From Desulfofustis sp. PB-SRB1 (lineage in GTDB: Bacteria > Desulfobacterota > Desulfobulbia > Desulfobulbales > Desulfocapsaceae), in assembly GCA_016722945.1 (NCBI GenBank), contig JAEQMT010000038.1, positions 248,001 through 312,000 of the forward strand: 64,000 nt of DNA, given 5' to 3'. Below are positions 26,430-64,000 of this stretch, in pieces. The notes under the pieces were generated by a model. It was not told the origin of the DNA. It did no database searches and saw only the letters and a list, made by a program, of their open reading frames with translations. The translations under genes were made by a program, and so were the position numbers. Every line of letters starts with the position of its first letter. Positions within the stretch are counted from its first letter, which is position 1.

Positions 26430-27002
26430 ATGCTCGTTGTGCGGCGTATTCTTGACACGATCTATCTGGCAAGCGGCTGGCTGGCGGCACTTTGCATTGG
26501 GCTGATCTGCGCCCTGGTGGTGGCGCAGGTCGGCCTCAACTCCTTAGACCGGATCAGCAGTCTGATTACCGGTCGGGCAATCGGTCTGACCATTCCCTCC
26601 TACGCCGATTTTACCGGCTTTTTCCTGGCCGCCGCCTCATTTCTCGCCCTCGCCTACACGCTGCGCCAGGGCGGACATATCCGGGTTACGCTGCTCGTTT
26701 CCCATCTCCCCCGGCGTGTGGCCCTGGTATTTGAGTGGTTCTGCCTGCTGACGGCAGCAGCCATTGCCTGCTATTTCAGCTACTATACCTTACTGCTCTG
26801 CCTCGAATCATATCGTTATCAGGATCTCTCGCCGGGGATGATCGCGGTACCCTTGTGGATTCCCCAATCCGCCATGCTGGCGGGGCTCATCATTGTCTCC
26901 ATCGCCCTGATCGACGAGTTGATCTGGGTAATACGGGGCAACCGGCCACACTACTGGGACGAGAGCCGGACCGACCATACCAGCGGGGAGGACAATGTCT
27001 GA
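26430..27002 (+). CDS. dctQ: TRAP transporter small permease (DctQ family)
   Basis: A 190-residue inner-membrane protein with four hydrophobic segments, the normal topology for the small TRAP subunit. The central segment LALAYTLRQGGHIRVTLLV contains the conserved R-x-G-x-H-I-R-V pattern. It follows dctP by 35 bases and overlaps the start of dctM by 8 bases, which suggests coupled translation. It should bridge the large subunit and the binding protein. The C-terminal tail after the last helix is long and charged. Confidence 0.9.
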   Translation: MLVVRRILDTIYLASGWLAALCIGLICALVVAQVGLNSLDRISSLITGRAIGLTIPSYADFTGFFLAAASFLALAYTLRQGGHIRVTLLVSHLPRRVALVFEWFCLLTAAAIACYFSYYTLLLCLESYRYQDLSPGMIAVPLWIPQSAMLAGLIIVSIALIDELIWVIRGNRPHYWDESRTDHTSGEDNV

Positions 27003-28296
27003 GCTGGCCATGACCGCGCTGCTGCTGGTGGCCCTGCTTGCTCTGTTGGCAGGCGGGCTGTGGGTGGCCTTTTCCCTGCTGGCGGTGGGGATGGCGGGTA
27101 TCTTTTTTTTCTCGTCGGCGCCCCTTGGCAGTGTGATGGCAACCACCATCTGGGGGGCAAGCAACAGCTGGGCCCTGGCCGCCTTGCCGCTGTTTATCTG
27201 GATGGGGGAGATTTTATTTCGCTCCCGTCTCTCCGAGGATATGTTCACCGGGCTCTCACCGTGGCTCAGCCATCTGCCGGGCCGGCTGCTGCACGTCAAT
27301 GTCTTTGGTTGTGCCATCTTTGCCGCCGTCTCCGGCTCCTCGGCGGCCACCGCCGCCACCATCGGCAAGATTTCGATGCCTGAGCTCTCCCGTCGCTCCT
27401 ACCCAACCACAATGATGGTCGGCACCCTGGCCGGATCAGCCACCCTGGGGCTGCTGATTCCCCCCTCGATCATCCTCATTGTCTACGGGGTTGCCACCGA
27501 ACAATCAATTGCCCGGCTGTTTATCGCCGGTATTCTGCCCGGCCTGCTGCTGGTCGGCCTGTTTATGGGCTACGTGATAATCTGGTCGCTGCTGCACAAG
27601 GCGGCAATTCCAGCCGACCATGAAACCACCAGTTTCGCCCAAAAAATAAAGCGATCTCGGCGACTGATACCCATTGTTCTGCTTATTCTGGGGGTAATCG
27701 GCTCCATCTACGCGGGCATTGCATCACCCACCGATGCCGCCGCCGTGGGGGTCCTGCTCGCCCTACTCCTGTCATGGAGCAGCGGCACCCTGACCCGTAC
27801 GAGTTTTCTGGACGGGCTGCGTGGCGCCACCATCACCTCATGCATGATTGCCTTTATCCTGGCCGGTGCCGCCTTTCTCACCGTGGCCATGGGATTTACC
27901 GGCATCCCGCGTTTGCTGGCAACCTGGATCGCCACGCTCAATCTCTCGCCTCACGCGCTGCTGGCGGTGCTCAGCGTCTTTTTCATCGTGCTTGGCTGCT
28001 TTCTCGACGGCATTTCAGTGGTGGTGCTGACCACCTCGGTGATCATGCCCATGGTGGAGCAAGCCGGTATCGACCCGCTCTGGTTCGGCATCTTTATTGT
28101 ACTGGTGGTGGAAATGGCGCAGATCACCCCGCCGGTGGGATTTAACCTCTTTGTCATCCAGGGCCAGACCGGCATCAATATTTTGCGGGTGGCCGCCGCC
28201 GCCATCCCGTTTTTCCTGCTGCTGCTGGTTGCCTTGCTGCTGATCACCATGTTCCCCACTATTGTGACCATCTTGCCCGACATGATGAAGGGGTAG
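26995..28296 (+). CDS. dctM: TRAP transporter large permease (DctM family)
   Basis: Sodium- or proton-coupled translocation subunit, 433 residues with about 12-13 hydrophobic segments. Family motifs include VSGSSAATAATIGKISMPEL near 111-130 and IPPSIILIVYG near 158-168, with DGISVVVLTTSVIMPM near 338-353 and the typical end block EMAQITPPVGFNLFVIQG. It completes the first of two TRAP systems in this window. The glycosyltransferase gene follows only 25 bases later on the same strand, but a functional link to it is not evident. Confidence 0.93.
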   Translation: MSELAMTALLLVALLALLAGGLWVAFSLLAVGMAGIFFFSSAPLGSVMATTIWGASNSWALAALPLFIWMGEILFRSRLSEDMFTGLSPWLSHLPGRLLHVNVFGCAIFAAVSGSSAATAATIGKISMPELSRRSYPTTMMVGTLAGSATLGLLIPPSIILIVYGVATEQSIARLFIAGILPGLLLVGLFMGYVIIWSLLHKAAIPADHETTSFAQKIKRSRRLIPIVLLILGVIGSIYAGIASPTDAAAVGVLLALLLSWSSGTLTRTSFLDGLRGATITSCMIAFILAGAAFLTVAMGFTGIPRLLATWIATLNLSPHALLAVLSVFFIVLGCFLDGISVVVLTTSVIMPMVEQAGIDPLWFGIFIVLVVEMAQITPPVGFNLFVIQGQTGINILRVAAAAIPFFLLLLVALLLITMFPTIVTILPDMMKG

Positions 28297-31917: not shown

Positions 31918-32961
31918 TTACAGTTCGCCGATATCGGTGAGAAACTGTTTCCAGAGCTCAACACCCTTGGCGTTACGCTCGGATTTCTCGGCAACTTTCG
32001 GCCAGATATCACTCACTGACTTTTCACGCATCCGCTTCACTTCCTCTTCGGAAAGATGCACCACCTCGCCGCCGGCCGCTTCCAATGTGGCCAACGCCTC
32101 TGCAACCCCCTCCATGTGCATGCGGCTGGTTTCAAAATAGGTGGTCATGAAGACCTCGTCGATGCGGTCACGCTGCCACTGGGTCAATTCGTTCCACTTA
32201 TCCAGGTTGACAAAAATTTCCTGGTGCTGAGAAGGACACCAGCCCGGCATGATGGCATACTGAATAACCTCATGAAAGGCCATATCGTCAATTCCGCCAG
32301 TATCCCAGTAGGTACCGTCGATGGTGCCGAGCTTGATGGCGGTGTAAATATCACCGGCGCCCATAGATACCGGGGCGCCGCCCATGGCCTCGTGGAACAG
32401 GGCATGGGGGCCGCCGGCACGCATTTTCTTACCGGCCAGATCTTCCATTTTGGTTACCGGAAATTTGGTGAACATGGCGTTGGGCCCCTGGCTGGACCAA
32501 CCGATCCAGTGCAGGTTGCGCTCGTTGGCCGCTTCCTCCACCAACTCACCGATGCGATACTTGGGATCACCCCACATGGCCGCCCAGGCATCACGATAGT
32601 TGCTGGCACCCATGGCCAGGCCAAATGCCAGCATACCCTCGGGCATATCGCCGCCATAGACGGTGGCCCAGCAGGCGGTACCGTCGATCATCCCGGCGAT
32701 GGTGGCGCCGAAGGCCTCGGAGCCGCTGGTGATGGCGCCGGAAGGTTCAAGCTGGATTTTGACGGTGCCTTCGGTTGCCGCTTCCACCGCCTCGATCCAC
32801 GGTACTACACCATTGGCCCAGCCGGCGTCGGAGGAGTCAAAACAGGGCTGAAACACCCATTCCGTTACTTTATCCGGGGGGCCGTTTTCTTGGGCCATCA
32901 TCGAGACCGGCAAAACAAGCAGACTGGCCGCGCTAATTACCGCGGTTGCAAGCTTCATCAT
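31918..32961 (-). CDS. dctP: TRAP transporter substrate-binding protein, taurine regulon
   Basis: A 347-residue periplasmic binding protein with a signal peptide (about 1-23). It has EGTVKIQLEPSGAI near 64-77, DLAGKKMRAGGPHALFHEAM near 174-193 with the conserved Arg, and TIDGTYWDTGGI near 213-224. It differs clearly from the dctP at 25414, so the window has two distinct TRAP systems. It lies downstream of dctQ and upstream of the dehydrogenase gene. The genomic context (xsc, tpa, ald) suggests it binds taurine or another sulfonate or a short carboxylate. The specific ligand cannot be deduced from sequence. A GGAGGAAG site precedes the ATG. Confidence 0.9.
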   Translation of the reverse strand: MMKLATAVISAASLLVLPVSMMAQENGPPDKVTEWVFQPCFDSSDAGWANGVVPWIEAVEAATEGTVKIQLEPSGAITSGSEAFGATIAGMIDGTACWATVYGGDMPEGMLAFGLAMGASNYRDAWAAMWGDPKYRIGELVEEAANERNLHWIGWSSQGPNAMFTKFPVTKMEDLAGKKMRAGGPHALFHEAMGGAPVSMGAGDIYTAIKLGTIDGTYWDTGGIDDMAFHEVIQYAIMPGWCPSQHQEIFVNLDKWNELTQWQRDRIDEVFMTTYFETSRMHMEGVAEALATLEAAGGEVVHLSEEEVKRMREKSVSDIWPKVAEKSERNAKGVELWKQFLTDIGEL

Positions 32962-33380
32962 AGTGTCTTCCTCCTGTTGTTAATGGTTGGCAGAGGCGGC
33001 GGAGACAAGGCGTGGAGCCACTATAAACCGCCACGATCTGCAAACTTAGTAATCATTGTGCAATTTGCAAAGATTATTGATGAGGTTTGACCCTTTCAAG
33101 AAAACCCCGATATCCGCCACGCAGGGCTTGATTCGGCATTCAGAAATTATGTGGATCTGGATCCCCGCCGAAGCCTGTCCTTGAATGGTAGAATCGAGGG
33201 CAGCTAAGACGGGGAAAATAATTTCAGTTTTACGGGGTTCGTCAGGTTTGAGTAATTCGCAATACTCCTGATATTGCTTACTTTCGTCATTCCCGCGAAA
33301 GCGGGAATCCAGTAATTTCAATTAACTACGGGTCTCAGGTCAATTCCAGTATGACGGTAATAGGGGTTTTTACGACGACA
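32962..33380. other. 419-bp intergenic region between dctQ and dctP
   Basis: The region holds a perfect stem-loop repeat at 33289-33308 and stretches of low-complexity sequence such as GGATCCCCGCCGAAGC near 33168. The left end near 33363 reads GTTTTTACGACGACATC, close to the end of the element at 15983. I saw no gene. A promoter for dctP may be here, but I cannot place it. Confidence 0.55.
33285..33312. repeat. Short palindromic repeat (REP-like)
   Basis: The sequence CATTCCCGC-GAAA-GCGGGAATC forms a perfect 8-bp stem (33289-33296 and 33301-33308) with a GAAA loop. Motifs of this GTCATTCCCGC/GCGGGAATCCAG kind are widespread in proteobacterial intergenic DNA. Whether it acts as a terminator or a processing site here is unknown. 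Confidence 0.7.
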
Positions 33381-33893
33381 TCAGCTTTGATGGTTGACTC
33401 CGATAATCGTCAAAATATCGTTGCCCAGTTTTTTAACGGCCACCAGCAGCACCATGATCGCGCTTAATGGGATAAGCGTCTTAATGGGATAGAGTGGGAT
33501 GGGCACCGCCGTCGGCGTCACCTGCTTGAGCTTCCAGGAGAGCTGGGCGGCGCTGTACCCCTTCCAGATCAGCACTCCCAGAAATAGGAAGGTGAAGACA
33601 ACGGTGATGATGTCACAAACCGCCTTTTTTCTTGGTGAAAACCGTGCGTAAAACAGATCGAGTTTGACGAAGGCGTCCTTGTTCAGGGCGTAGGCGCCGC
33701 CCATGCAGGCGATCAGCACCAGGGCGGCCTGAATGGTGGTGCCGATCCAGAGCGATGGCTTGTTGAGTACATAACGCAGAAACACATCGGTGATCCCTGA
33801 TATCATACAATAGAGGATGAGCGCCCAGCCGATCCTCCCCATACCTTCAACGACCATGTCGATGACCCACTCATACATTCGCCACACTTTCAT
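33381..33893 (-). CDS. dctQ: TRAP transporter small permease, taurine regulon
   Basis: A 170-residue protein with four hydrophobic segments, as for DctQ. The N-terminal part includes VDMVVEGMGRIGWALILYCM and a central ALNKDAFVKLDLFYARFSPR loop with the conserved charged pattern. The stop codon lies where dctM (upstream) and the 419-base gap meet. It belongs with dctM at 33936 and dctP at 31918. The gap to dctP is unusually large for a TRAP operon, because of the repeats in it. Confidence 0.86.
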   Translation of the reverse strand: MKVWRMYEWVIDMVVEGMGRIGWALILYCMISGITDVFLRYVLNKPSLWIGTTIQAALVLIACMGGAYALNKDAFVKLDLFYARFSPRKKAVCDIITVVFTFLFLGVLIWKGYSAAQLSWKLKQVTPTAVPIPLYPIKTLIPLSAIMVLLVAVKKLGNDILTIIGVNHQS

Positions 33894-33935
33894 CGTACAC
33901 TCCTCATATATTACTTATCCGGCAACGACACCGGC

Positions 33936-35246
33936 TCAGTTGTTCATCATACTCGGCAGCCACAGAGCGATCTGGGGAAACATGAAGACCAGCGCCAAGC
34001 CAAGCAACTGCAACAAAATAAAAGGCCCAACCGAGCGGTAGACATCGCCCATAGTCACGTCAGGCGGCAAGACACTCTTTATCCAGAAGAGCACGAACCC
34101 AAAGGGCGGGGTAAGATAGGCGATCTGGATGTTGACGATAAAGAGTACGCCAAACCAGAGCTTGTCGATGCCCAGTTCGTTGATAATCGGGATATAGAGC
34201 GGTGTACACAACATGATGATGGCCCAGTCATCCATTACCATGCCGAGCAGCAGAATGATGAACATCATCATGAACAGGATACCGTTGGTGCCGCCCGGCA
34301 TCCCCAACACCAGCGAGGTGACCAGCTCCTGACAGCCCATGGAATTGAAGATATTAAGGTAGATGTTGGCCCCGATCAGGATCCAGAATCCCATGCCGGT
34401 AAGGGTCAGGGTGGTAATCAGGGAATCGCGCAGCACTTGCCAGGTGAGTTTGCCATAGATGGCATTGATGAGAAAGGCGCCGGTGGCGCCGAAGGCGGCG
34501 GCCTCGGCCGGCGTCGCCACCCCACCCCAGATTGCCCCCAGCACGATAAAAATCAACAGCAGAAAGGGCCAGATGTTGAGCAGGGCATGGAGCTTTTCGC
34601 GGGTGGAAAATTTTTCGTCAGCCGGGATGGCGGGACCGATATGGGGCTGGAGCCGGCAGCGGATGCCGATGTAGACGATATAGAAAAAGGCGAGCATGAG
34701 CCCCGGCAGTACCCCGCCCAGAAACAGGCCGCCGATGGAAACCTTGGCCAGCAGCCCGTAGAAGATAAACGGGACGCTGGGCGGAATCAGCGCTCCCAGG
34801 GCGCCGCCGGCGCCGATGGAGCCGATGGCGATCTCCCGGCGGTATTTGTATTTCATCATGGAGGGATAGGCGATCTGCCCCATGGTAATGGTGGCGGGCG
34901 GGGTGATTCCGGTAATGGCGGCAAAGATGGTACATACTTTTACCGTACCCATGGCGAGGCCACCGGGAATATGGCCGATCAGCTTGTAGACCGCGTCGTA
35001 GGCGGCCTCGGCAATGCCGGAAAAGCGGATCAGGCTGCCCATGAACAAAAAGAGCGGCACCGTCACCAGCACGTGGTTCCACGGCGTGTAATAAAAGGCG
35101 CTGGGAATGGCCAGCAGCGAGCGGGGCTCGAAGATGGCCGCGAAGATAACAGCGGTACCTCCCAGCCCAAGGGCCACCGGCAGCCCCAGAAACAGCGAGA
35201 AAAACAGCACCCCGAAGTACAATAGTGTGATCAGTTCAATGCTCAC
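33936..35246 (-). CDS. dctM: TRAP transporter large permease, taurine regulon
   Basis: Large TRAP translocation subunit with about 12 hydrophobic segments. The segment VCTIFAAITGITPPATITMG and the late block VVNIQIAYLTPPFGFVLFWI match the family, with the usual Pro-Pro-Phe-Gly end motif. I prefer the GTG at 35246, which has AGGGAGA about 6 bases upstream and starts at the first helix (VSIELITLLYFG). The upstream alternative at 35276 adds ten residues and lacks such a site. The protein is then 436 residues. The gene lies 42 bases before dctQ and after a strong hairpin downstream of mmsA. Confidence 0.92.
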   Translation of the reverse strand: MSIELITLLYFGVLFFSLFLGLPVALGLGGTAVIFAAIFEPRSLLAIPSAFYYTPWNHVLVTVPLFLFMGSLIRFSGIAEAAYDAVYKLIGHIPGGLAMGTVKVCTIFAAITGITPPATITMGQIAYPSMMKYKYRREIAIGSIGAGGALGALIPPSVPFIFYGLLAKVSIGGLFLGGVLPGLMLAFFYIVYIGIRCRLQPHIGPAIPADEKFSTREKLHALLNIWPFLLLIFIVLGAIWGGVATPAEAAAFGATGAFLINAIYGKLTWQVLRDSLITTLTLTGMGFWILIGANIYLNIFNSMGCQELVTSLVLGMPGGTNGILFMMMFIILLLGMVMDDWAIIMLCTPLYIPIINELGIDKLWFGVLFIVNIQIAYLTPPFGFVLFWIKSVLPPDVTMGDVYRSVGPFILLQLLGLALVFMFPQIALWLPSMMNN

Positions 35247-35274
35247 GAGATCTCCCTGGCTTGAAAAATACGGC

Positions 35275-35307
35275 ATTCCACGGAACCGGTGGCCGGCGCC
35301 GTGGAAT
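35275..35307 (-). promoter_or_regulatory. Strong intergenic hairpin between mmsA and dctM
   Basis: Arm ATTCCACGG-AA-CCGG pairs with CCGG-CG-CCGTGGAAT around a 3-base loop, giving 13 pairs interrupted by a 2x2 internal loop. On the mRNA it lies between the mmsA stop and the dctM GTG. It is followed by a GCCGTATTTTT stretch, so it may be a partial terminator or a processing and stability site that sets transporter dose relative to the enzymes. Confidence 0.6.
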
Positions 35308-35417: not shown

Positions 35418-36971
35418 TTATGAGGCCACGCAGCTCCGAACTGTGGGCTGCTCCGAGCTGTCCTGCGTGGTAGCACCCGCACTGCCTACATAGTGGCCTG
35501 AGGGCGGCGCCACCCGGACGGTGGCGATCTTGTTCTGGGTGAAGAAATCGATGCCGTCTTTCCCTTGTACCTTATTTGTTCCCAGATGGGAATCTTTTAT
35601 GCCGCCAAAGGGCAGATACGGATGGGGGGCGCAGATCCCCACGTTTATCCCCACCATGCCGACATTGGCCTCGCTGATGAAGTGCTCGGTATAATACTGG
35701 TTTTGGGTAAAGATGCAGGCACCGTTGCCAAACGGCTGGGCGCGGATAATTGCCAGGGCGTCATCGATATCCTTGATCCGCATCACCGATACCACCGGCC
35801 CGAAAATTTCCTCTTTGGCAATGGTACGGCAGGGAGTGACATCGGCGAAAATGGTGGGGCCGACAAAGTAGCCGTTTCTGTTTTTCTCGGGTACCTCTGG
35901 GTTACGACCGTCAAGCACGAGGGTAGATCCTTCCTTGATGCCGATTTCGATGTAATTTTCGATCTTTTCTTTGGCCTGGGCCGAGATCACCGGCCCCATA
36001 TAGACATCGGGGTCGCAGGCATCGCCGGTTTTGACGTTTTTCCCCGCCTGGATCATCTTTTCAAGCAGCATGTCGTAGACCTCCGGCACCACCGCGACAA
36101 TGGAGCCGGCCAGACAGCGCTGCCCGGCGGAGCCAAAGCAGGAGTGGATGAAATTCTCAATAAATAGATCGGGCTGCACATCCTCCATCGCCACCAGGAT
36201 GTTCTTGGCGCCGCCCAGCAGCATGGATCGTTTGCCGCCGCGCCCACAGGCCTCGGCCATGGCAGTGGCAGTGGGGCTGGAACCCACCAGGCAGACGCCG
36301 CTGATGCGCCGATCGTCATACCAGGTGCCGGGAATCGTCCGGTTGCCGTGAATGATGTTGACTACCCCGGGCGGCAGCTTGATGGTCTGAAATATCTCGC
36401 CGGTTTTCTGCATGAACAGCGGCGACTGGGTGGATGGCTTGAAGATAAAGGTATTACCCACGCCGATGGCAAAAGGCACGAACCAGGCAAACACCAGGGC
36501 CGGGAAGTTGAACGGGGCAACTCCGCCGTACACGCCCAGCGGCTCCTTGATCACCCGGCCGCTGATATTGGTGGAAATCCCCTGCAGGGTCTCGCCCTGG
36601 AGGAGGCTGGGAATTGAGCAGGCAATCTCAAAAATCTCGACGATCCGACGCACTTCACCGCGTGCCTCGCTGATGTGCTTGGCCTGGTCAACGGCAATAG
36701 CCATGGCCAGTGTTTCCTCGTTGTTAATGATCTCCTGCCGCATATCAAAAAGATAGGCCATACGCTTGGCCAGCGGCAATTTGCGCCAGGGGTCATAGGC
36801 TGCAAAGGCGGATTCGGTGCACTGCTCAGATGCGGCCACCGAAGAAAGCGGTACCTCGCCGATCTGTTCACCGGTAGAAGGATTGAACAGTAGTGTCGTC
36901 TTCGCCCCGCGCTCTTCCACCCACTCACCATGAATAAAATTCTTTATGCGGATATCGTGATAGGTTTCCAT
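35418..36971 (-). CDS. mmsA: CoA-acylating (methyl)malonate-semialdehyde dehydrogenase family
   Basis: An aldehyde dehydrogenase superfamily member of 517 residues. The N-terminus has YHDIRIKNFIHGEWVE; the central part has APFNFPALVFAWFVPFAIG, the nucleotide-binding pattern, and the catalytic cysteine in GSAGQRCLAGS. The whole pattern is that of MmsA, which converts (methyl)malonate semialdehyde to propionyl- or acetyl-CoA. In this taurine regulon a sulfonated aldehyde is also conceivable. I choose the ATG at 36971 because GGAGGAG lies just upstream; the ATG six codons earlier has no such site. It follows gntR and precedes the hairpin and dctM. Confidence 0.88.
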   Translation of the reverse strand: METYHDIRIKNFIHGEWVEERGAKTTLLFNPSTGEQIGEVPLSSVAASEQCTESAFAAYDPWRKLPLAKRMAYLFDMRQEIINNEETLAMAIAVDQAKHISEARGEVRRIVEIFEIACSIPSLLQGETLQGISTNISGRVIKEPLGVYGGVAPFNFPALVFAWFVPFAIGVGNTFIFKPSTQSPLFMQKTGEIFQTIKLPPGVVNIIHGNRTIPGTWYDDRRISGVCLVGSSPTATAMAEACGRGGKRSMLLGGAKNILVAMEDVQPDLFIENFIHSCFGSAGQRCLAGSIVAVVPEVYDMLLEKMIQAGKNVKTGDACDPDVYMGPVISAQAKEKIENYIEIGIKEGSTLVLDGRNPEVPEKNRNGYFVGPTIFADVTPCRTIAKEEIFGPVVSVMRIKDIDDALAIIRAQPFGNGACIFTQNQYYTEHFISEANVGMVGINVGICAPHPYLPFGGIKDSHLGTNKVQGKDGIDFFTQNKIATVRVAPPSGHYVGSAGATTQDSSEQPTVRSCVAS

Positions 36972-37017
36972 GGACTCCTCCCTTGTCATGCTGGTTGTTT
37001 AACTGAATCCGGTGGCT

Positions 37018-37677
37018 TCATCCCTGGTAAAAGGCGTAGATGAAATCGCTTTGCGCACTAAATGACCAGTGCACCTCTTTGAGAATACGTCCCGCTGCGG
37101 CGCCGTCACCGGCCTCGATACACTCGATGATTTGGCGATGCTCGCCGCAGTTGCGCAGTTCCCAGGCGGGGATATAGTTTTTTCTGGGGAAATCGTAGAG
37201 CCGGTGTTTCAACGGCAAGATGAACTGCTTGAGCGGTTCATTCTCACATGTATCCACATAGGTATTGTGAAACCGCAGATTGGTCTCAAAAAAGTATGAG
37301 AAGTCTTCAGCCTCGATAGCCTTGATCATCTGGTCGTTAAGTGCTTTGAGGCGGGCAATATGGGCGGGCGTTATACGATCGATACAGGTCTCGACGATAA
37401 AGGCCTCGATGAGCCCGACACTGTCATAGGCATGTTCGACCTGCGCCATGGTAAGCGCATTCACAAGCACGCCGCGGCGCGGCAGGATGGTGACGAACCC
37501 CTCCAGCTGGAGGTGAATGAGCGCATCTCTGAGCGGCGTTTTACTGATTCCGAGCTGGCCGGCAATCTCACCAATATTGAGCGTTGAACCCGGCGCCAGG
37601 TGCCCCTCGTGCATCTGGCGCCGCAGGTAATCATACACCAGCTGACTCAACGAGGAGTAGTTGAGGGTTTCACTCAT
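37018..37677 (-). CDS. GntR-family (FCD) transcriptional regulator
   Basis: A 219-residue regulator. Residues about 9-60 form a winged helix-turn-helix (LNIGEIAGQLGISKTPLRDAL), followed by an FCD ligand-binding domain (about 85-215) with helical charged segments and conserved His/Asp positions. It lies within the taurine gene set, 80 bases after ald and 46 bases before mmsA. The palindrome in the xsc promoter is the likely operator. A ligand such as taurine, sulfoacetaldehyde or acetyl phosphate would derepress it. Ligand and operator assignment are inferences. Confidence 0.88.
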   Translation of the reverse strand: MSETLNYSSLSQLVYDYLRRQMHEGHLAPGSTLNIGEIAGQLGISKTPLRDALIHLQLEGFVTILPRRGVLVNALTMAQVEHAYDSVGLIEAFIVETCIDRITPAHIARLKALNDQMIKAIEAEDFSYFFETNLRFHNTYVDTCENEPLKQFILPLKHRLYDFPRKNYIPAWELRNCGEHRQIIECIEAGDGAAAGRILKEVHWSFSAQSDFIYAFYQG

Positions 37678-37757: not shown

Positions 37758-38870
37758 CTACAGAAAGGTTTCGATATCGGTATAGGCAAGGCCGAACGCC
37801 TCGGCCACCGCTTCATAGGTCACCGCCCCGCGCACCACGTTGGCGCCTTTTTTGATCTCCTCGCTCTCCTGCATGGCTCGCTGCCAGCCTTTATTGGCAA
37901 TGGCAAGGGCATAAGGCAGGGTGGCGTTGGTCAAGGCTATGGTAGAGGTTCTGGCCACCGCTCCCGGCATGTTGGCAACACAGTAGTGCACCACCCCGTC
38001 AACCACATAGGTGGGCTCGGCGTGGGTAGTGGCCTTGGAGGTCTCGGCACAGCCACCCTGATCGATGGCCACGTCGACCAGCACTGATCCGTCCTTCATG
38101 GTACCGAGCATTTCCCTGGTGATGAGTTTGGGCGCCTTGGCGCCGGGAATCAGTACCGCGCCGATCACCAGATCAGCCTTGGCGACATATTCCCGCAGCA
38201 TAGCCGGATTGGACATGATGGGAAAGCAGTTGGCCGGCATCACATCGTCGAGATAGGCCAGACGCTCGAGATTGGTATCGAGAATATAGACCTGGGCGCC
38301 CAGTCCGCATGCCATTTTCGCGGCGTTGATTCCCACCACGCCGCCGCCGATCACCACTACCGTGGCCGGCGCCACGCCCTTGACGCCGCCCAGCAGAATA
38401 CCGCGGCCCCCTTCGGGCATCTCCAGACATTTAGCCCCTTCCTGCGCGGCCATTCGTCCCGCCACCTCGCTCATGGGCACCAGCAGCGGCAGTGAACCAT
38501 CTTTCTTCTCGATGGTCTCGTAGGCGATATTTATCGAACCGGCCTTGATCAACGCCTTGGTCTGCTGCTCATCAGCAGCCAGATGGAGGTAGGTGAAGAC
38601 GATCTGATCCTTGCGAATGAGATCATACTCGGAGGGCTGCGGCTCTTTGACATGCATCACCATGTCACAGGCGCCAAACACTTCCTCTGGAGATGGTGCG
38701 ATAGCAGCACCGGCGGCGCGATATTCATCGTCTGAAAAACCGGCGCCGACACCGGCCGCGGTTTCCACCATCACCTCATGGCCGGCCCCCACCAGGGTGG
38801 CAACACCGCCTGGAACCATGCATACTCGATTTTCCAACACTTTGATTTCTTTCAGAATACCGACTTTCAT
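37758..38870 (-). CDS. ald: Alanine dehydrogenase
   Basis: Oxidative deamination of L-alanine to pyruvate and ammonium with NAD+. The 370-residue length is normal. The N-terminal MKVGILKEIKVLENRVCMVPGG and the lysine-bearing VMHVKEPQPSE are family features; the nucleotide fold has VVIGGGVVGINAAKMA near 172-187 and a later VDVAIDQGGCAETS. In taurine degradation this enzyme regenerates the pyruvate that Tpa uses as amino acceptor, releasing ammonium. It sits between tpa and gntR, so pathway assignment is supported by neighbours. GGGGGAG precedes the ATG. Confidence 0.93.
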   Translation of the reverse strand: MKVGILKEIKVLENRVCMVPGGVATLVGAGHEVMVETAAGVGAGFSDDEYRAAGAAIAPSPEEVFGACDMVMHVKEPQPSEYDLIRKDQIVFTYLHLAADEQQTKALIKAGSINIAYETIEKKDGSLPLLVPMSEVAGRMAAQEGAKCLEMPEGGRGILLGGVKGVAPATVVVIGGGVVGINAAKMACGLGAQVYILDTNLERLAYLDDVMPANCFPIMSNPAMLREYVAKADLVIGAVLIPGAKAPKLITREMLGTMKDGSVLVDVAIDQGGCAETSKATTHAEPTYVVDGVVHYCVANMPGAVARTSTIALTNATLPYALAIANKGWQRAMQESEEIKKGANVVRGAVTYEAVAEAFGLAYTDIETFL

Positions 38871-39077: not shown

Positions 39078-40472
39078 CTAAATCCCCGCCTCGACCGTAT
39101 ACCGCAGAGCACCGACCACCCGGTCAACCTCATCTTTGGTGATGATAAGCGCCGGAGCAAAGTTCATGGTAACGTTCAGGCCGGTAATGGAGGTATTGGT
39201 ACGCCCGACGATAATGTTCTGGGCGAGCATGGAGGCGACAATTTTTGCCATCTCGGCCTCGGAAACCGGCTCCCTGGTGGTCTTGTCACGGACAAATTCC
39301 ACCCCGCAGAACAGCCCCATCCCGCGGACATCGCCCACCAGCGGCAGATCTTTCAGCTCTTGCAGGCGGCCAAGCAGGTAACTCCCCATTTCCTTACTAT
39401 TTTCAATGAGCTTCTCATCTTCGATGATGCGCATGGTCTCAAGGGCCGCAACCAGCGGTCCGGTGCAGCCGCCGTAGGTGGAAATATCCCTGAAAAAATT
39501 CATCCGCTGGTCCGGATCGGCCGGATCGTTGAGAAACAGATCAAAAATTTCCTGTTTCACGGCAACGGCGGAGAGCGGTTCATAGGAACTCGCCATGCCC
39601 TTGGCCATGGTAACCATGTCCGGATCGACATCGAAATGATCATGCCCCCAGAATGTACCGGTGCGGCCGAACCCGCAGACAACCTCATCCATAATCAGCC
39701 AGATATCGTGCTTTTTGCAGATGTCCTGAACGATGGGAAAATACTCAGGCACCGGTACGATGATGCCGCCGCCGGCGGTAATAGGCTCGATAATCAGACC
39801 GCCCACCGTTTCCGGCCCCTCTTTTTGCACCACATCTTCGATACAACGGGCACACTCGATATCGCAGCCCGGATAGGTTTTATCGAACGGGCAGCGATAG
39901 CAGCAGCAGTGGGGAAATTCCACAAACCCCTCGACGAACGGGCCGAACTGCTCCTTGCGCTCATTCTGGCCGGAGGCGCTTACCGCGGCAATGGTGGTGC
40001 CGTGATAGTCACGGTTACGATAGAGCACCTTGAACTTGCCTTTCCGCTGCTCGATGAAGTGGGCCGCCTGACGGACGATCTTAAAGGCCTTTTCGTTGGC
40101 CTCCGAACCGCTGTTGGCAAAATATATCTTGCCCAGCCGCGGCAGTGTAGCGAGGATTTTCTCGGCACACTGGACAGCCGGGACGGTGCCGTAGACGCCG
40201 GCAAAATAGGGCAGTTTTTTGAGCTGCGCGGCAATGGCATCACCGATTGATTCGCGGCCAAAACCGACAATCACGCTCCACACCCCGCCTGAGGTAACAT
40301 CGAGAAACTCCCGGCCGCGAATATCGGTGACGGTAAGCCCCTTGCCCTCCACCATAATAAGCTGCTCGGCGGTCTCAAAGAGCTTGTGCGGCTTGATATG
40401 ATGCCAGAGATACTCTTTATCTCCCTTGACAATTTCTTCGACATCGTAGTTCAGCATATCAGGTGCTCCCAT
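39078..40472 (-). CDS. tpa: Taurine:pyruvate aminotransferase (class III)
   Basis: PLP enzyme that moves the amino group of taurine to pyruvate, forming sulfoacetaldehyde and alanine. The ATG at 40472 has AAGGAG seven bases upstream; the in-frame TTG at 40499 has none. The resulting 464-residue protein has YFANSGSEANEKAFK, RNRDYHGTT, IMDEVVCGFGRTG and the PLP lysine in TMAKGMAS (about Lys292). An unusual Cys cluster, HCCCYRCPF with CARCIEDV, lies near 190-220. The next gene on the same strand upstream, 36 bases away, is xsc. This pairing is the main reason for choosing taurine over beta-alanine or putrescine. Amino acids of related class III enzymes remain possible. Confidence 0.87.
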   Translation of the reverse strand: MGAPDMLNYDVEEIVKGDKEYLWHHIKPHKLFETAEQLIMVEGKGLTVTDIRGREFLDVTSGGVWSVIVGFGRESIGDAIAAQLKKLPYFAGVYGTVPAVQCAEKILATLPRLGKIYFANSGSEANEKAFKIVRQAAHFIEQRKGKFKVLYRNRDYHGTTIAAVSASGQNERKEQFGPFVEGFVEFPHCCCYRCPFDKTYPGCDIECARCIEDVVQKEGPETVGGLIIEPITAGGGIIVPVPEYFPIVQDICKKHDIWLIMDEVVCGFGRTGTFWGHDHFDVDPDMVTMAKGMASSYEPLSAVAVKQEIFDLFLNDPADPDQRMNFFRDISTYGGCTGPLVAALETMRIIEDEKLIENSKEMGSYLLGRLQELKDLPLVGDVRGMGLFCGVEFVRDKTTREPVSEAEMAKIVASMLAQNIIVGRTNTSITGLNVTMNFAPALIITKDEVDRVVGALRYTVEAGI

Positions 40473-40508
40473 GGCTCGTCTCCTTTTCAAATAACCCAAG
40501 TATACCGG

Positions 40509-42287
40509 TTAAACAGCTTTTTGCGGCCGCATATCGGCCGGATCGATACCCGCGCAGGAAACCGGCGCCTTCATGGCGTCACGACGGAACGGTTCGCCCA
40601 GTTCCTGGTTAACGATCACCTCAATAAAAGTGGTTGTGTTGTCTTCCATCTGGGCTTTCAAGGCGGCCCCCAGGATCTGGGTGAGTTCTTCTGGGCTTTT
40701 TGCCTGAACACCTTTCATACCACAGGCCTCGGCAATGGCGGCGTAAGAAACCCCCTGGTCCAGCTCAGTACCCACAAAGTTATCCGCATACCAGAGGGTG
40801 GTATTGCGCTTTTCCGCTCCCCACTGATAGTTACGAAAGATGATCATGGTGATCGGCGGCCAGTTGTCACGCCCGCACACGGTCATCTCGTTCATGGAAA
40901 TGCCGAAAGCACCGTCCCCCGCCATGCCGATCACCGGCGTATCGGGACGGGCGATCTTGGCCCCCAGAATCGATGGAAACCCGTATCCACACGGTCCGAA
41001 CAGACCCGGCGCAAGATACTTGCGGCCCGCCTCGAAAGTGGGGTACGCGTTGCCGATGGCGCAGTTGTTGCCGATATCGGAGCTGATAATGACATCAGCA
41101 GGCATGGCCGCTTTGATGGCGTTCCAGGCCATCCGGGGCGACATCTTGTCGGGAGCGCCGGTCCTGGCCCGTTCATTCCAGCTGGTGCCGGGATCGTCCT
41201 GCTCATGGATCAGGGTTTTCAGCTCCTTGTCCCAGTCGGCCTTGGTCTTGGCAATCAGCGAGGTGCGTTGGTCGCGGTTGTGGTCGCCGGCAGTGGCTGA
41301 GAGGTGCTGCATGATGGCCGCGGCTACTTTTTTCGCGTCGCCGACGATACCCACCGAAACCGGTTTGGTGAGCCCGATCCGGTCGGGATTGATATCCACC
41401 TGGATCAGGGCCGCGTCTTTGGGCCAGTAATCGATCCCGTAACCGGGCAGGGTAGAAAATGGGTTAAGCCGGGTGCCCAGCGCCAGCACCACATCCGCCT
41501 GAGCGATCAGCTCCATTGCCGCTTTGGAGCCGTTATAGCCCAGCGGCCCGGCAAACAGGGGGTGACTACCGGGAAAGGCGTCGTTGTGCTGATAGTTGCA
41601 GCAAACCGGAGCATCGAGCCGTTCGGCCAGGGCCATGGCGGGTTCGATGGCACCGCCGAGAACCACTCCCGCTCCGTTTAAGATGACCGGCATACGGGCT
41701 TCTGAAAGCAGTTCCGCGGCCCGTTTTACGGCCTCTTCGCCGCCGGCCGGACGCTCAAACTCGATAATGGCGGGCAGCTCAATATCAATCACCTGGGTCC
41801 AGAAATCGCGCGGCACATTTATCTGGGCCGGGGCCGACGCCCGTTTGGCCTTCATGATCACCCTGTTGAGGACCTCGGCGATGCGGGCCGGCGTGCGCAC
41901 CTCTTCCTGATAGGCAACCATATCCTTGAATACCGCCAGCTGCTCGACCTCCTGAAATCCGCCCTGTCCGATGGTGGCATTGGCCGCCTGCGGCGTGACC
42001 AGCAGCAGCGGGGTGTGATTCCAGTACGCCGTCTTGACCGGGGTAACGAAGTTGGTGATACCCGGGCCGTTCTGTGCCACCAGCATGGACATCTTGCCTG
42101 AGGCGCGACTGTACCCGTCCGCCATCATCCCGGCGTTACCCTCATGACCACAATCCCAGAAAGTGATTCCGGCTGTGGGAAACAGATCCGATATCGGCAT
42201 CATGGCCGAGCCGATAATGCCGAACACATCCTCAATTCCATGCATCTGCAAGACCTTGATAAAGGCCTCTTCTGTTGTCATCTTCAT
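40509..42287 (-). CDS. xsc: Sulfoacetaldehyde acetyltransferase
   Basis: ThDP-dependent enzyme that cleaves sulfoacetaldehyde with phosphate to acetyl phosphate and sulfite. The 592-residue protein starts KMTTEEAFIKVLQMHGI and has GIIGSAMMPISDLFP near 24-38, the ThDP-activating Glu49 in WDCGHEGNAG, and a cofactor block with GDGAFGISMNEMTVCGRDNW and IIFRN near 456-487. These match Xsc over other acetolactate-synthase relatives. The ending acetyl phosphate can feed acetate kinase for ATP, and sulfite can serve as electron acceptor. It is the first gene of the leftward regulon. A palindromic operator overlaps its -10 region. Confidence 0.94.
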   Translation of the reverse strand: MKMTTEEAFIKVLQMHGIEDVFGIIGSAMMPISDLFPTAGITFWDCGHEGNAGMMADGYSRASGKMSMLVAQNGPGITNFVTPVKTAYWNHTPLLLVTPQAANATIGQGGFQEVEQLAVFKDMVAYQEEVRTPARIAEVLNRVIMKAKRASAPAQINVPRDFWTQVIDIELPAIIEFERPAGGEEAVKRAAELLSEARMPVILNGAGVVLGGAIEPAMALAERLDAPVCCNYQHNDAFPGSHPLFAGPLGYNGSKAAMELIAQADVVLALGTRLNPFSTLPGYGIDYWPKDAALIQVDINPDRIGLTKPVSVGIVGDAKKVAAAIMQHLSATAGDHNRDQRTSLIAKTKADWDKELKTLIHEQDDPGTSWNERARTGAPDKMSPRMAWNAIKAAMPADVIISSDIGNNCAIGNAYPTFEAGRKYLAPGLFGPCGYGFPSILGAKIARPDTPVIGMAGDGAFGISMNEMTVCGRDNWPPITMIIFRNYQWGAEKRNTTLWYADNFVGTELDQGVSYAAIAEACGMKGVQAKSPEELTQILGAALKAQMEDNTTTFIEVIVNQELGEPFRRDAMKAPVSCAGIDPADMRPQKAV

Positions 42288-42365
42288 CGTTTTCCCTCGC
42301 TTATGTATTGATCAGTCCTCATCGGCACAGTAGCAGCCATCTCAACTCTCCCCCTTACCCCTATT

Positions 42366-42391
42366 CTGATGTCTGATATATCAGATATCAG
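42366..42391. promoter_or_regulatory. Palindromic operator in the xsc promoter, probable GntR site
   Basis: The 26-bp dyad has arms CTGATGTCTGAT and ATCAGATATCAG around an AT centre, with one mismatched pair, and its core TCTGATATATCAGA (42372-42385) is perfectly symmetric. It spans the -10 and spacer of the xsc promoter. Such a position fits a repressor. The only regulator in the regulon is the GntR/FCD protein at 37018, so I assign it by inference. Confidence 0.72.
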
Positions 42392-42402
42392 AGACCTGTC
42401 AA
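42375..42402 (-). promoter_or_regulatory. xsc: Sigma-70-type promoter of xsc
   Basis: On the minus strand TTGACA (42402-42397) and TATATC (42380-42375) are separated by 16 bases. The leader to the xsc ATG is about 80 bases, and the ATG has a GAGGG site just upstream. The palindromic operator overlaps this promoter. Confidence 0.68.
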
Positions 42403-42412
42403 TAGAAATATT

Positions 42413-42856
42413 GTGCCTCAATTATTGTTTTGCCATCAAACCGGGTCTCTGGTAAGGTTGGCTGACGATTTGATTATGGATTCATTGCCCGTATTCTCGC
42501 CGCCTGACTGTGGTATCCAGCGCTTCCCTAATCAAGTTCTATTCCGATCCTATTGCGTCCTTAACCAATCCATGCAATATTTGCTCGGATACACAATGCA
42601 ACCGTCAACCATTCCAACTGCCTCCTTCCACAGCTACCGGCTCGGTGCCGCCTGTCTTGATGCTTTAACACAAAGCGTTCACGACATGGCGGCGGCATGG
42701 GGTTCACCAGTCTTCGCTGCTCCGTTTTCCGGACGCCCTGTGCCTGCTGAAAAAGATGTGGTAACGGGTTCCGTGGAGATACCCGGCGCCACCCGTTCGC
42801 CGGCTGGTCAATTACCCCTCTGCCGGATAAACGGAACTCGCCCGGCAGCCGGCTGA
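42413..42856 (+). CDS. Doubtful open frame upstream of olsF
   Basis: A 147-codon frame with no recognised family. It starts with several hydrophobic and Pro/Gly residues, contains no clear signal peptide or domain, and ends in a Pro/Ala/Arg-rich tail. It might be a small protein whose real start is the ATG at 42572, but composition alone does not settle it. Its position directly ahead of olsF would otherwise suit a short leader gene. Confidence 0.2.
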   Translation: MPQLLFCHQTGSLVRLADDLIMDSLPVFSPPDCGIQRFPNQVLFRSYCVLNQSMQYLLGYTMQPSTIPTASFHSYRLGAACLDALTQSVHDMAAAWGSPVFAAPFSGRPVPAEKDVVTGSVEIPGATRSPAGQLPLCRINGTRPAAG

Positions 42857-42863
42857 ACCACTT

Positions 42864-44588
42864 ATGTTTACCGTCGATCAGGTTATCAACGAATACTATC
42901 CGGCGCTTAATGATCGCAAGATAGTATCGTCGATTATCAAGCCGATTCTTCGACGATTACTGCACGAGAGTTCCTTTATCGAATTTGCCGAAAAGTACCC
43001 GCATCTTCAGGGTATCGAGTTTGTCGAGCAGATCCTTGAATCGTTTGGGTTTTCCTACGCCGTATCGGATCGCGAACGGGAAAACATTCCGTCCGAGGGC
43101 AAGGTGATGATTATCGCCAACCATCCCATCGGCACTCTGGATGGCCTCGCCCTGCTTAAACTTGTCCACGAAATCCGCTCTGATGTGCGCATCGTCGCCA
43201 GTGACCTGCTCATGTCCATCGCGCCCCTGCGCCCCTGCCTGCTGCCGGTGAAGCTCTCCACAAAACCGGTGCCCCGGCGCGATATTTTTCGAATCAGCGA
43301 GGCCCTGGAAAATGAGGAGGCGATCATCACCTTTCCCTCGGGCCAGGTCTCCCGCCTGGGTCCGCGCGGTATCCGCGACGGCCGCTGGCACGCCGGTTTT
43401 CTGCAGATTTCCGAACAGGCCAAGGCGCCGATCCTGCCAATCCATATCAAGGGGCGCAATTCCGCCTCATTTTATCTCGCCTCTTTTGTCATGCGGCCGC
43501 TCTCCACTCTGCTGCTGGTGGGGCAGATGTTTTATCAGCAGGAAAAAGAGATCAAGATGACCATCGGCTCCATCATCCCCTTTGAGTCCTACCGCAACGT
43601 GGATATTCGGCGTACCGACAAGGTCAAGCTCTTTCGTAAACATGTCTACCGCGTCGGTGCTAACAAAAAGCTGCTCTTTTCCACGGAAACCGCCATTGCC
43701 CGGCCGGAGCGCAAGCCAGAGCTGAAAAAGGCGGTCACCGCGGCCGCGAAACTGGGCCGCACCCCGGACGGCAAGACCATTTATCTGCTGGAGCCCAGTC
43801 AATCATCACCGGTCATGCGGGAAATCGGCCGCCTGCGCGAACACGCCTTTCGCGCCGTCGGCGAGGGTACCGGCAACCGCCGTGATCTCGATCATTTCGA
43901 CTGGTATTATCAGCACCTGCTGCTGTGGGATGAAGACGACCTGGAAATCGCCGGCGCCTATCGTTTCGTAAACGCCGGCAAGGTGGTTGCGGAAAAAGGC
44001 CCAGAGGGGTTGTACTCGGCCAGTCTCTTTACGCTGGATACCGGCAAGTGCTGGTTCTTGCAAAACGGTCTGGAGCTGGGCCGTAGCTTCGTACAGCAGC
44101 GCTACTGGGGTCGGCGCAGCCTCGACTACCTGTGGTACGGCATCGGCGCCTTTCTCAAGGAAAACCCTCATTATCGTTATCTGTTCGGCCCGGTTTCCAT
44201 CAGCAACGCGGTACCGGAGATGGCCCGTGAGATTCTGGTCTATTTTTACAAGCTCTATTTTTCGGCCGATACCTCGATTTCGTGCTCGCGCAACCCATTC
44301 AGCTTCTCACAATCACTCTCTGATCTTGCCCAACTTTTTGACGGCAACGATTACAAGGCCGATTTCACCAAGCTAAAGACGCTTTTAAGCAATCTCGGCA
44401 CCGCCGTCCCGCCGTTATACAAACAGTACACCGAGCTGTGTGAGCCGGGCGGGGTGGTCTTTCTTGATTTCAATATCGATCCGGCCTTCAAGGATTGCGT
44501 CGACGGCCTGGTCATCGTTGACACCACCAGGCTCAAGGCGGCCAAGCGGGAACGCTACGTCCAGAGCACTTTTTTATCAAACGAGTAA
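42864..44588 (+). CDS. OlsF-like two-domain acyltransferase (ornithine lipid synthesis)
   Basis: A 574-residue protein with a PlsC/OlsA-like acyltransferase domain first (about 60-290, with IIANHPIGTLDG at 85-96, FPSGQVSRLGPRG near 155, and a lipid acceptor region) and a hemolysin/GNAT-like N-acyltransferase region afterwards (about 310-560, with LREHAFRAVGEGTG, GRSFVQQRYWGR and the closing block). This order matches OlsF, which makes ornithine lipids from ornithine and acyl-ACP in two steps. Other head-group amino acids are possible. It begins a rightward operon with phoH, a radical SAM gene and a flavoprotein gene. Confidence 0.72.
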   Translation: MFTVDQVINEYYPALNDRKIVSSIIKPILRRLLHESSFIEFAEKYPHLQGIEFVEQILESFGFSYAVSDRERENIPSEGKVMIIANHPIGTLDGLALLKLVHEIRSDVRIVASDLLMSIAPLRPCLLPVKLSTKPVPRRDIFRISEALENEEAIITFPSGQVSRLGPRGIRDGRWHAGFLQISEQAKAPILPIHIKGRNSASFYLASFVMRPLSTLLLVGQMFYQQEKEIKMTIGSIIPFESYRNVDIRRTDKVKLFRKHVYRVGANKKLLFSTETAIARPERKPELKKAVTAAAKLGRTPDGKTIYLLEPSQSSPVMREIGRLREHAFRAVGEGTGNRRDLDHFDWYYQHLLLWDEDDLEIAGAYRFVNAGKVVAEKGPEGLYSASLFTLDTGKCWFLQNGLELGRSFVQQRYWGRRSLDYLWYGIGAFLKENPHYRYLFGPVSISNAVPEMAREILVYFYKLYFSADTSISCSRNPFSFSQSLSDLAQLFDGNDYKADFTKLKTLLSNLGTAVPPLYKQYTELCEPGGVVFLDFNIDPAFKDCVDGLVIVDTTRLKAAKRERYVQSTFLSNE

Positions 44589-63877: not shown

Positions 63878-64000
63878 AGAATTGGACAAGTTGTTCGACA
63901 GTGGTGAAGACATTACTGAACACCTTGATGTATCATCTAAACATAGACCTGGGCTTAAGCAAAGACGTGTCAATGTCGACTTCCCTGACTGGATGATCCA
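63867..64000 (+). CDS. CopG/BrnA-type antitoxin (cut by window edge)
   Basis: The N-terminal 44 residues of a small basic protein: MKAKELDKLFDSGEDITEHL, then KQRRVNVDFPDWMI. This pattern (KxLDxxFDxGEDI ... RRVNVDFP) is typical of CopG-type antitoxins that pair with BrnT-like toxins, in which RRVNVDFP is the ribbon strand of the RHH fold. The start overlaps the small upstream protein by 11 bases, as in many toxin-antitoxin operons. The rest lies outside the window. Local sequence is AT-rich, which suggests transfer. Confidence 0.75.
   Translation, partial: MKAKELDKLFDSGEDITEHLDVSSKHRPGLKQRRVNVDFPDWMI

Follow-up and report, generated by a model that had tools for sequence, protein, structure and literature searches.

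Anaerobes draw on taurine and related sulfonates for sulfide production, and the locus analysed here raises the question of which protein controls the genes for taurine dissimilation in a sulfate-reducing bacterium, and to what effect. The window, by which we mean the whole 64,000-nucleotide stretch of Desulfofustis sp. PB-SRB1 DNA that was analysed, holds a row of genes on its minus strand in the order xsc, tpa, ald, gntR, aldh and TRAP, and a long palindrome lies ahead of xsc. The genes and the evidence for them are as follows:

40509..42287, minus strand: xsc, sulfoacetaldehyde acetyltransferase (NCBIfam TIGR03457, 914.9 bits, cut-off 676.4)
39078..40499, minus strand: tpa, class III aminotransferase, probable taurine:pyruvate aminotransferase (Pfam PF00202)
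37758..38870, minus strand: ald, alanine dehydrogenase (Pfam PF01262, PF05222)
37018..37677, minus strand: gntR, GntR/FCD regulator of 219 aa, proposed repressor (Pfam PF00392 and PF07729, fold, co-occurrence)
35418..36989, minus strand: aldh, aldehyde dehydrogenase (Pfam PF00171; own operator copy in some relatives)
31918..35276, minus strand: TRAP transporter genes, with the large subunit at 33936-35276, the small subunit at 33381-33893 and the binding protein at 31918-32961 (Pfam DctM, DctQ, DctP; own operator copy in some relatives)

No NCBIfam cut-off was reached by tpa among the 25 matches listed, and its role as a taurine:pyruvate aminotransferase is probable from its context with xsc and ald. 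Gaps of 9, 207, 80, 28 and 141 nt separate the genes from xsc to the first TRAP gene, and gaps of 42 and 419 nt follow inside the TRAP set. The window also holds a second TRAP large-subunit (DctM) gene on the opposite strand (26995-28296, plus), 33% identical to the one in the taurine cluster.

The palindrome had been described as 26 bp long, and its arms, CTGATGTCTGAT (42366-42377) and ATCAGATATCAG (42380-42391) around an AT centre (42378-42379), were confirmed. The symmetry extends one base further on each side, to 28 bp (42365-42392) with 13 of 14 pairs matched and no loop, the sole mismatched pair being G42371/T42386. Each arm is itself a direct repeat of (C/G)TGATRT with a 7-bp spacing, so the site consists of four boxes and not of two plain arms. 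Read along the minus strand, TTGACA (42402-42397) is followed by four bases, the palindrome (42392-42365), 77 nt and the xsc start at 42287. The elements of the site are:

42365..42392, no strand: operator, palindromic, 28 bp, four boxes (sequence, shuffles, conservation in relatives)
42366-42370, 42373-42377, 42380-42384 and 42387-42391: operator boxes, reading CTGAT, CTGAT, ATCAG and ATCAG, respectively
42397..42402, minus strand: -35 box TTGACA of the xsc promoter (sequence; at least 5/6 in 29/33 operator copies)
42375..42380, minus strand: probable -10 box TATATC, spacer 16 (sequence; the same place in relatives often reads TATATC, TATATT or TATTTT)

Short two-copy inverted repeats are common, and the palindrome could in principle have arisen by chance and be without function. 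However, none of 2000 dinucleotide shuffles of the 576 bases that separate xsc from the acyltransferase gene reached its score of 11.5 (best shuffle 10.5, mean 5.4), and many genomes that share these genes have kept it, even distant ones retaining it before the same gene. We therefore rejected a chance origin, the probability of which we consider negligible. By the same scoring script, the xsc palindrome is the top-scoring palindrome of the whole 64-kb window, and a search of the 4.69-Mb genome for the four boxes, allowing up to three mismatches, found a single place, as against none for the reversed-pattern control.

The first-pass annotation had placed a good TTGACA/TATATC promoter under the palindrome. 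The -35 box matches at six of six positions and the palindrome does lie over the spacer and the -10 box, but TATATC matches at only four of six positions, and its assignment as the -10 box is the weakest part of the promoter call. An alternative -10 box, TATCAG (42373-42378, spacer 18), is equal by match count and also occurs in many xsc copies. The TGA at 42383-42381, part of an inner operator box, precedes TATATC and could act as an extended -10. A generic promoter scan of positions 41400-43200 reported no site, missing this promoter because it demands T at the last -10 position. We searched the 33 operator copies described below for TTGACA, allowing matches of at least 5/6 that start 10-16 nt ahead of the first TGAT, and found it in 29, always 11-14 nt ahead of that TGAT, 25 of them without a mismatch; in 2000 trials with shuffled flanks, a mean of 1.4 and at most 7 of the 33 copies had it. 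Given this conservation in relatives, the window promoter is credible, and since TTGACA lies upstream of the operator, the -10 box has to lie inside it. The most regular -10 candidate follows the inner TGAT; its sequence is TATATC in many copies at xsc, TATATT in several at aldh and TATTTT at tpa. The operator thus spans roughly -23 to +3, over the spacer, the -10 box and the probable start (predicted at 42367-42368), a repressor geometry that is conserved in relatives. Directly behind the xsc promoter, a divergent 147-aa reading frame (42413-42856, plus strand) had no Pfam match.

A long inverted repeat upstream of a coding sequence could also act in the leader RNA, as an attenuator or terminator hairpin. 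This explanation was rejected as highly improbable: the palindrome lies across the promoter and mostly upstream of the predicted start, no terminator was found, leader folding was no better than that of shuffles (z = 1.09), and mirror positions are frequently unpaired, with Watson-Crick pairing at operator positions 4/19 in only 12/33 copies and at positions 6/17 in only 15/33. Low pairing combined with near-fixed box letters therefore points to a site read by a protein and not to RNA.

If a protein binds here, it might activate transcription, or both activate and repress. Some FCD regulators are activators, and activator sites normally lie at or above the -35 box; this operator, however, covers the spacer, the -10 box and the start behind a -35 box of at least 5/6 in 29 of the 33 copies, and spacers of the likely length, 16-18 nt, give no hint of MerR-like distortion. 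Activation by the GntR protein draws further support from TauR, a MocR-type activator described in passages of PMC5320631 as running taurine genes in alpha-, beta- and gammaproteobacteria and Rhodococcus. Like the regulator considered here, TauR controls genes of taurine uptake and breakdown such as tpa (PMC5320631, same passages); unlike it, TauR carries an aminotransferase-like domain and activates, whereas here an FCD protein is found with repressor geometry. A TauR site was also considered and rejected: the TauR motif consists of CTGGACYTAA repeats (excerpts of PMC4494728), and a TauR-type motif matched the window once with one mismatch, at 63949, against 4.1 matches expected by chance, and not at all at the promoter. 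On balance we regard activation by the GntR protein as improbable and repression as the better reading of the site.

Conservation was followed in xsc homologues from two sources, a genome-contig scan, in which 80 loci were kept of at least 571 confirmed, and 97 whole genomes, 14 of which had a match at E ≤ 1e-100. These gave 18 readable xsc loci of the sulfate-reducer type, six from the contig scan (L002, L011, L016, L019 and L026, chosen because their record titles point to sulfate reducers, and L027) and 12 from whole genomes (G000, G011, G014, G021, G028, G036, G037, G039, G044, G051, G052, G089); G002, with its xsc cut at a contig end, was left out, and G045 was counted once with L002. The remaining 74 xsc loci of the contig scan, from other bacteria, formed the comparison set. 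The relatives include Desulfosediminicola (class Desulfobulbia), Desulfotignum and Desulfosarcina (both class Desulfobacteria), Desulfobacterium and the Olavius Delta 4 symbiont. Loss of the palindrome in relatives with the same regulator and gene order had been named beforehand as evidence against an operator; it was in fact kept in 16 of the 18 loci (15 of 17 without L027, which was put into the set because of its motif and gntR homologue), where it lies at most 182 nt ahead of xsc and has weight-matrix scores of 23 to 44 and leave-one-out scores of 19.2 to 43.6. G021 has a three-box copy (score 10.4) 195 nt upstream of xsc. No operator was found within 500 nt upstream of xsc in G051, where gntR is 48% identical and weaker copies (8.8 and 9.9), above the comparison background, lie ahead of the aldh and TRAP genes. 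Within 600 nt upstream of the 74 comparison xsc genes the operator was absent, with a matrix score of at most -0.6, and over the whole 1.14 Mb of the comparison loci the score was at most 3.3.

An alignment of 33 operator sites gave the consensus CTGATRTSTGATRYATCASAYATCAG with the inner core TGATRYATCA. Box letters are almost invariant, least so in the box furthest downstream, and the outer box nearer the -35 roughly equals the inner boxes in strength; across the 17 xsc copies in the alignment, information content is 1.3-1.9 bits at most box positions and mostly less than 0.4 in flanks beyond the -35 region. Part of this box conservation reflects selection, since the search consensus was itself built on the earliest sites, and several of the rows belong to closely related genomes. 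That consensus played no part in choosing the comparison set, the leave-one-out scores or the TTGACA flank. Left out of the alignment were copies 7 bp out of register, G043, G037 at 5881094, L002 at 3099 and 3878 (4-5 mismatches), L099 at 16302 (6 mismatches), G089 at C5:179525 and G056 at C42:180. The weak copies of G051 were identified after the alignment; so was the nearer three-box copy of G021 at 195 nt, and the row for xsc of that genome is a copy at a distance of 575 nt. A single simple dimer site, for which the inner 10 bp alone might suffice, was considered and rejected in favour of four boxes, because the outer boxes are conserved as well.

Where relatives split the pathway genes, further operator copies begin the separate operons, headed by tpa, TRAP or aldh. 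Three copies (xsc, tpa and TRAP) occur in G014, G028 and G039, and two copies in G011, G021, G036 and G044 (xsc and aldh), G037 (xsc and TRAP) and G052 (xsc and tpa); an aldh copy is also present in G056. The window, with its genes in one row, has a single copy in its genome, in contrast to the several copies of split-cluster relatives, and none was found ahead of its trapP, though trapP starts 419 nt after trapQ. When pathway genes of one strand were grouped into a unit if separated by under 400 nt, copies before inner genes were seen in two cases only, at TRAP in G039 and, as a weak copy, at aldh in G051, both lying behind gntR. Conversely, G037 had no copy at its aldh unit, and gntR genes that start a unit had no site in the scanned upstream sequence in L002, L155, L156 (6147) and L152 (265 nt only).

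The motif and the regulator coincide at the genome level. With up to three mismatches the motif occurred in 14 of the 97 relatives (reversed control, 0/97), and gntR at E ≤ 1e-40 in 13; both were present in 11 genomes, gntR only in two (G002, G051), the motif only in three (G043, G052, G056) and neither in 81. Fisher tests, which ignore relatedness, gave p = 2.7e-10 for motif and gntR (11 shared) and p = 1.1e-11 for motif and xsc (12 shared). G052 and G056, with sites and no gntR at E ≤ 1e-40, are drafts 86-87% complete, and the three-mismatch site of G043, which lacks gntR, is probably due to chance. G014, G037 and G039 each have two or three gntR paralogues as candidate binders and G028 only a 53% one; on L011 and L019, which are short contigs, no regulator gene was seen. 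Among 395 genomes of the phylum, at up to two mismatches, three were positive (the window's, G089 and G470), and only G470 was new.

These counts bear on whether another transcription factor of the same genomes, and not this GntR/FCD protein, binds the palindrome. The association of the motif with xsc is as strong as that with gntR, and because gntR and xsc tend to occur in the same genomes, the binder cannot be picked out by such counts alone. Several observations nevertheless speak for the GntR protein. The first-pass annotation had called it the only regulator of the regulon, and family searches agree, no second regulator having been found in the window's gene row, which is what this survey covered. 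In Desulfotignum (L016), one operator site lies between divergent gntR and xsc genes. In G470, a perfect copy (L158:9739-9762) lies directly ahead of a gntR homologue with 44% identity and the same recognition helix as in the window, SKTPLRDALI, followed by class III aminotransferase and amidohydrolase genes; xsc was not found in the 14-kb stretch fetched around it, where the copy perhaps controls the use of another amine. Finally, the DNA-reading residue of the regulator differs from that of a characterized relative where the operator base differs, as set out below. We consider a different binder unlikely, if somewhat less so than activation, and continue with the GntR/FCD protein.

The 219-aa regulator has an N-terminal GntR winged helix-turn-helix (PF00392, 56.3 bits, cut-off 27), a C-terminal FCD domain (PF07729, 81 bits, cut-off 24.3) and no other domains. 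Its AlphaFold2 model has a mean pLDDT of 87.6, and the Foldseek matches listed are GntR-type regulators, with query TM up to 0.79, including Atu1419, McbR, TM0439 and PmiR. Atu1419, a VanR-type protein of Agrobacterium fabrum (PDB 6Z74, 6ZA3), and TM0439 (PDB 3FMS, 3SXY), both in the FadR/FCD subfamily of GntR repressors, have the same combination of winged helix and FCD domain and match the regulator in sequence as well as in fold. The best NCBIfam match was PhnR of Burkholderia (TIGR03338), by name a phosphonate regulator, at 107.8 bits and far under the cut-off of 271.5.

The GntR family operator consensus is TKGT/ACMA, with BioR and NanR named as exceptions (excerpts of PMC4494728). Given that this GT...AC feature was tested and found absent, with the core TGAT-RY-ATCA in its place, we class the operator as a variant of the family's operators and the regulator as an FCD-type GntR protein. 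In the same paper, Suvorova et al. describe weaker extra half-sites 7-12 nt from the centre, a feature reported for many GntR regulators, though not required, and present here in the outer TGAT boxes, which are centred about 10 nt off the palindrome centre. G3 of ATGTATACAT is read by Arg45 in Atu1419, which no longer binds once G3 is replaced by A (passages of PMC7797058). The core TGATRYATCA has A where ATGTATACAT has the essential G3, and the regulator has Lys46 at the place of Arg45, an equivalence placed by the shared S-x-T-P motif and not by the structure of a complex. Among 24 homologues, residue 46 is Lys in 19, Asn in one and Arg in four, with Arg only in those 35-40% identical. The published position 28, most often Arg, is Gly36 here by alignment to TM0439 and is Arg in none of the 24 homologues. 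Atu1419, like the regulator here, has a 10-bp core palindrome overlapping the -10 box of its target promoters (PMC7797058, same passages); unlike here, its core is ATGTATACAT in separate 10-bp palindromes, as against TGATRYATCA and four boxes within one operator.

The two proteins also resemble each other in the effector domain. The Asn plus three His that form the zinc site of Atu1419 (PMC7797058, in part) are matched by Asn133, His137, His180 and His203, the three His being present in 24/24 homologues and the Asn in 23/24, which refers to residues and not to bound metal. In the model, Asn133 and His137 belong to helix 6, His180 to helix 8 and His203 to the end of helix 9, and the zinc of Atu1419 holds helices 6, 8 and 9 (PMC7797058, in part). 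Since the residues lie on the same helices, a metal-assisted effector pocket is likely, judging from the model.

For the four-box layout, the nearest comparison is NanR of E. coli, also a GntR/FCD protein and, like the protein proposed here, an FCD repressor acting on close repeats in a promoter region, of which three dimers occupy (GGTATA)3 (sections of PMC8012715). The NanR repeats are all direct, whereas here two direct repeats face two inverted ones, and the cooperativity of NanR needs a 32-residue N-terminal extension (PMC8012715, same sections) that is absent here, the first helix of the winged domain beginning at residue 10 in the model.

The palindrome, its conservation, its overlap with the promoter, the regulon, the co-occurrence and the matching change in a DNA-reading residue were all computed, and they lead us to conclude that the palindrome is very probably the operator for the GntR/FCD protein, whose gene is the third after xsc and which would act as a metabolite-relieved repressor of taurine dissimilation; the argument is one from sequence. 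When no taurine metabolite is present, the protein would sit on the four TGAT boxes, presumably as two dimers sharing them, over the -35/-10 spacer, the -10 box and the start site. Bound there, it would shut RNA polymerase out of what may be one long operon, xsc-tpa-ald-gntR-aldh(-TRAP), and so repress its own gene as well. A metabolite of the pathway, of which taurine and sulfoacetaldehyde are our guesses, would enter the FCD pocket near the predicted Asn/His metal site and release the protein. More tentatively, with slightly less than an even chance of being right, sulfate reducers may have a taurine repressor of their own, in which FCD specificity shifted from GT/AC to TGAT/ATCA (Arg to Lys46, G to A), dimers cooperate on a four-box operator and the inner box serves as an extended -10; on this same tentative reading, that double use means that operator and promoter could not evolve apart.

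Among the open-licence papers listed in literature searches, we recognized none on a GntR/FCD taurine repressor. Word searches of three papers on taurine or isethionate use by related anaerobes revealed no such regulator: 'GntR' did not occur in any of them; 'repress' was also absent from PMC10507020, where 'regulator' occurred once, in a reference, 'operator' from PMC8667426 and 'regulator' from PMC6453916. The proposed switch would link taurine dissimilation in sulfate reducers to a regulator known by name, an operator defined to the base and a set of predicted target genes, and it would offer a natural test case in which one residue-base pair alters specificity in a large regulator family.

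Several minor observations accompany these results. In G014 (L084/L097), a single in-frame TAG interrupts the xsc match and the match to the TRAP large subunit is broken into three pieces, which may reflect readthrough, decay or an assembly error. Exact matches to 17 bases of the operator were present in 29 stretches of viral contigs, and a search of plasmids with the regulator returned proteins 28.9-34.9% identical in 14 records. In G089, a perfect copy without TTGACA (L145:9774-9797, G089:C6) lies before a short reading frame, and another copy (L105:15369-15392) precedes a second, different TRAP transporter, with its binding-protein gene from 15663. Three-mismatch copies in G089 (L105:4525-4550) and G037 (L149:6095-6118), genomes of different families, lie ahead of closely similar genes of the ornithine-cyclodeaminase/mu-crystallin type (Pfam assignment from the G089 gene), a possible further member of the regulon.
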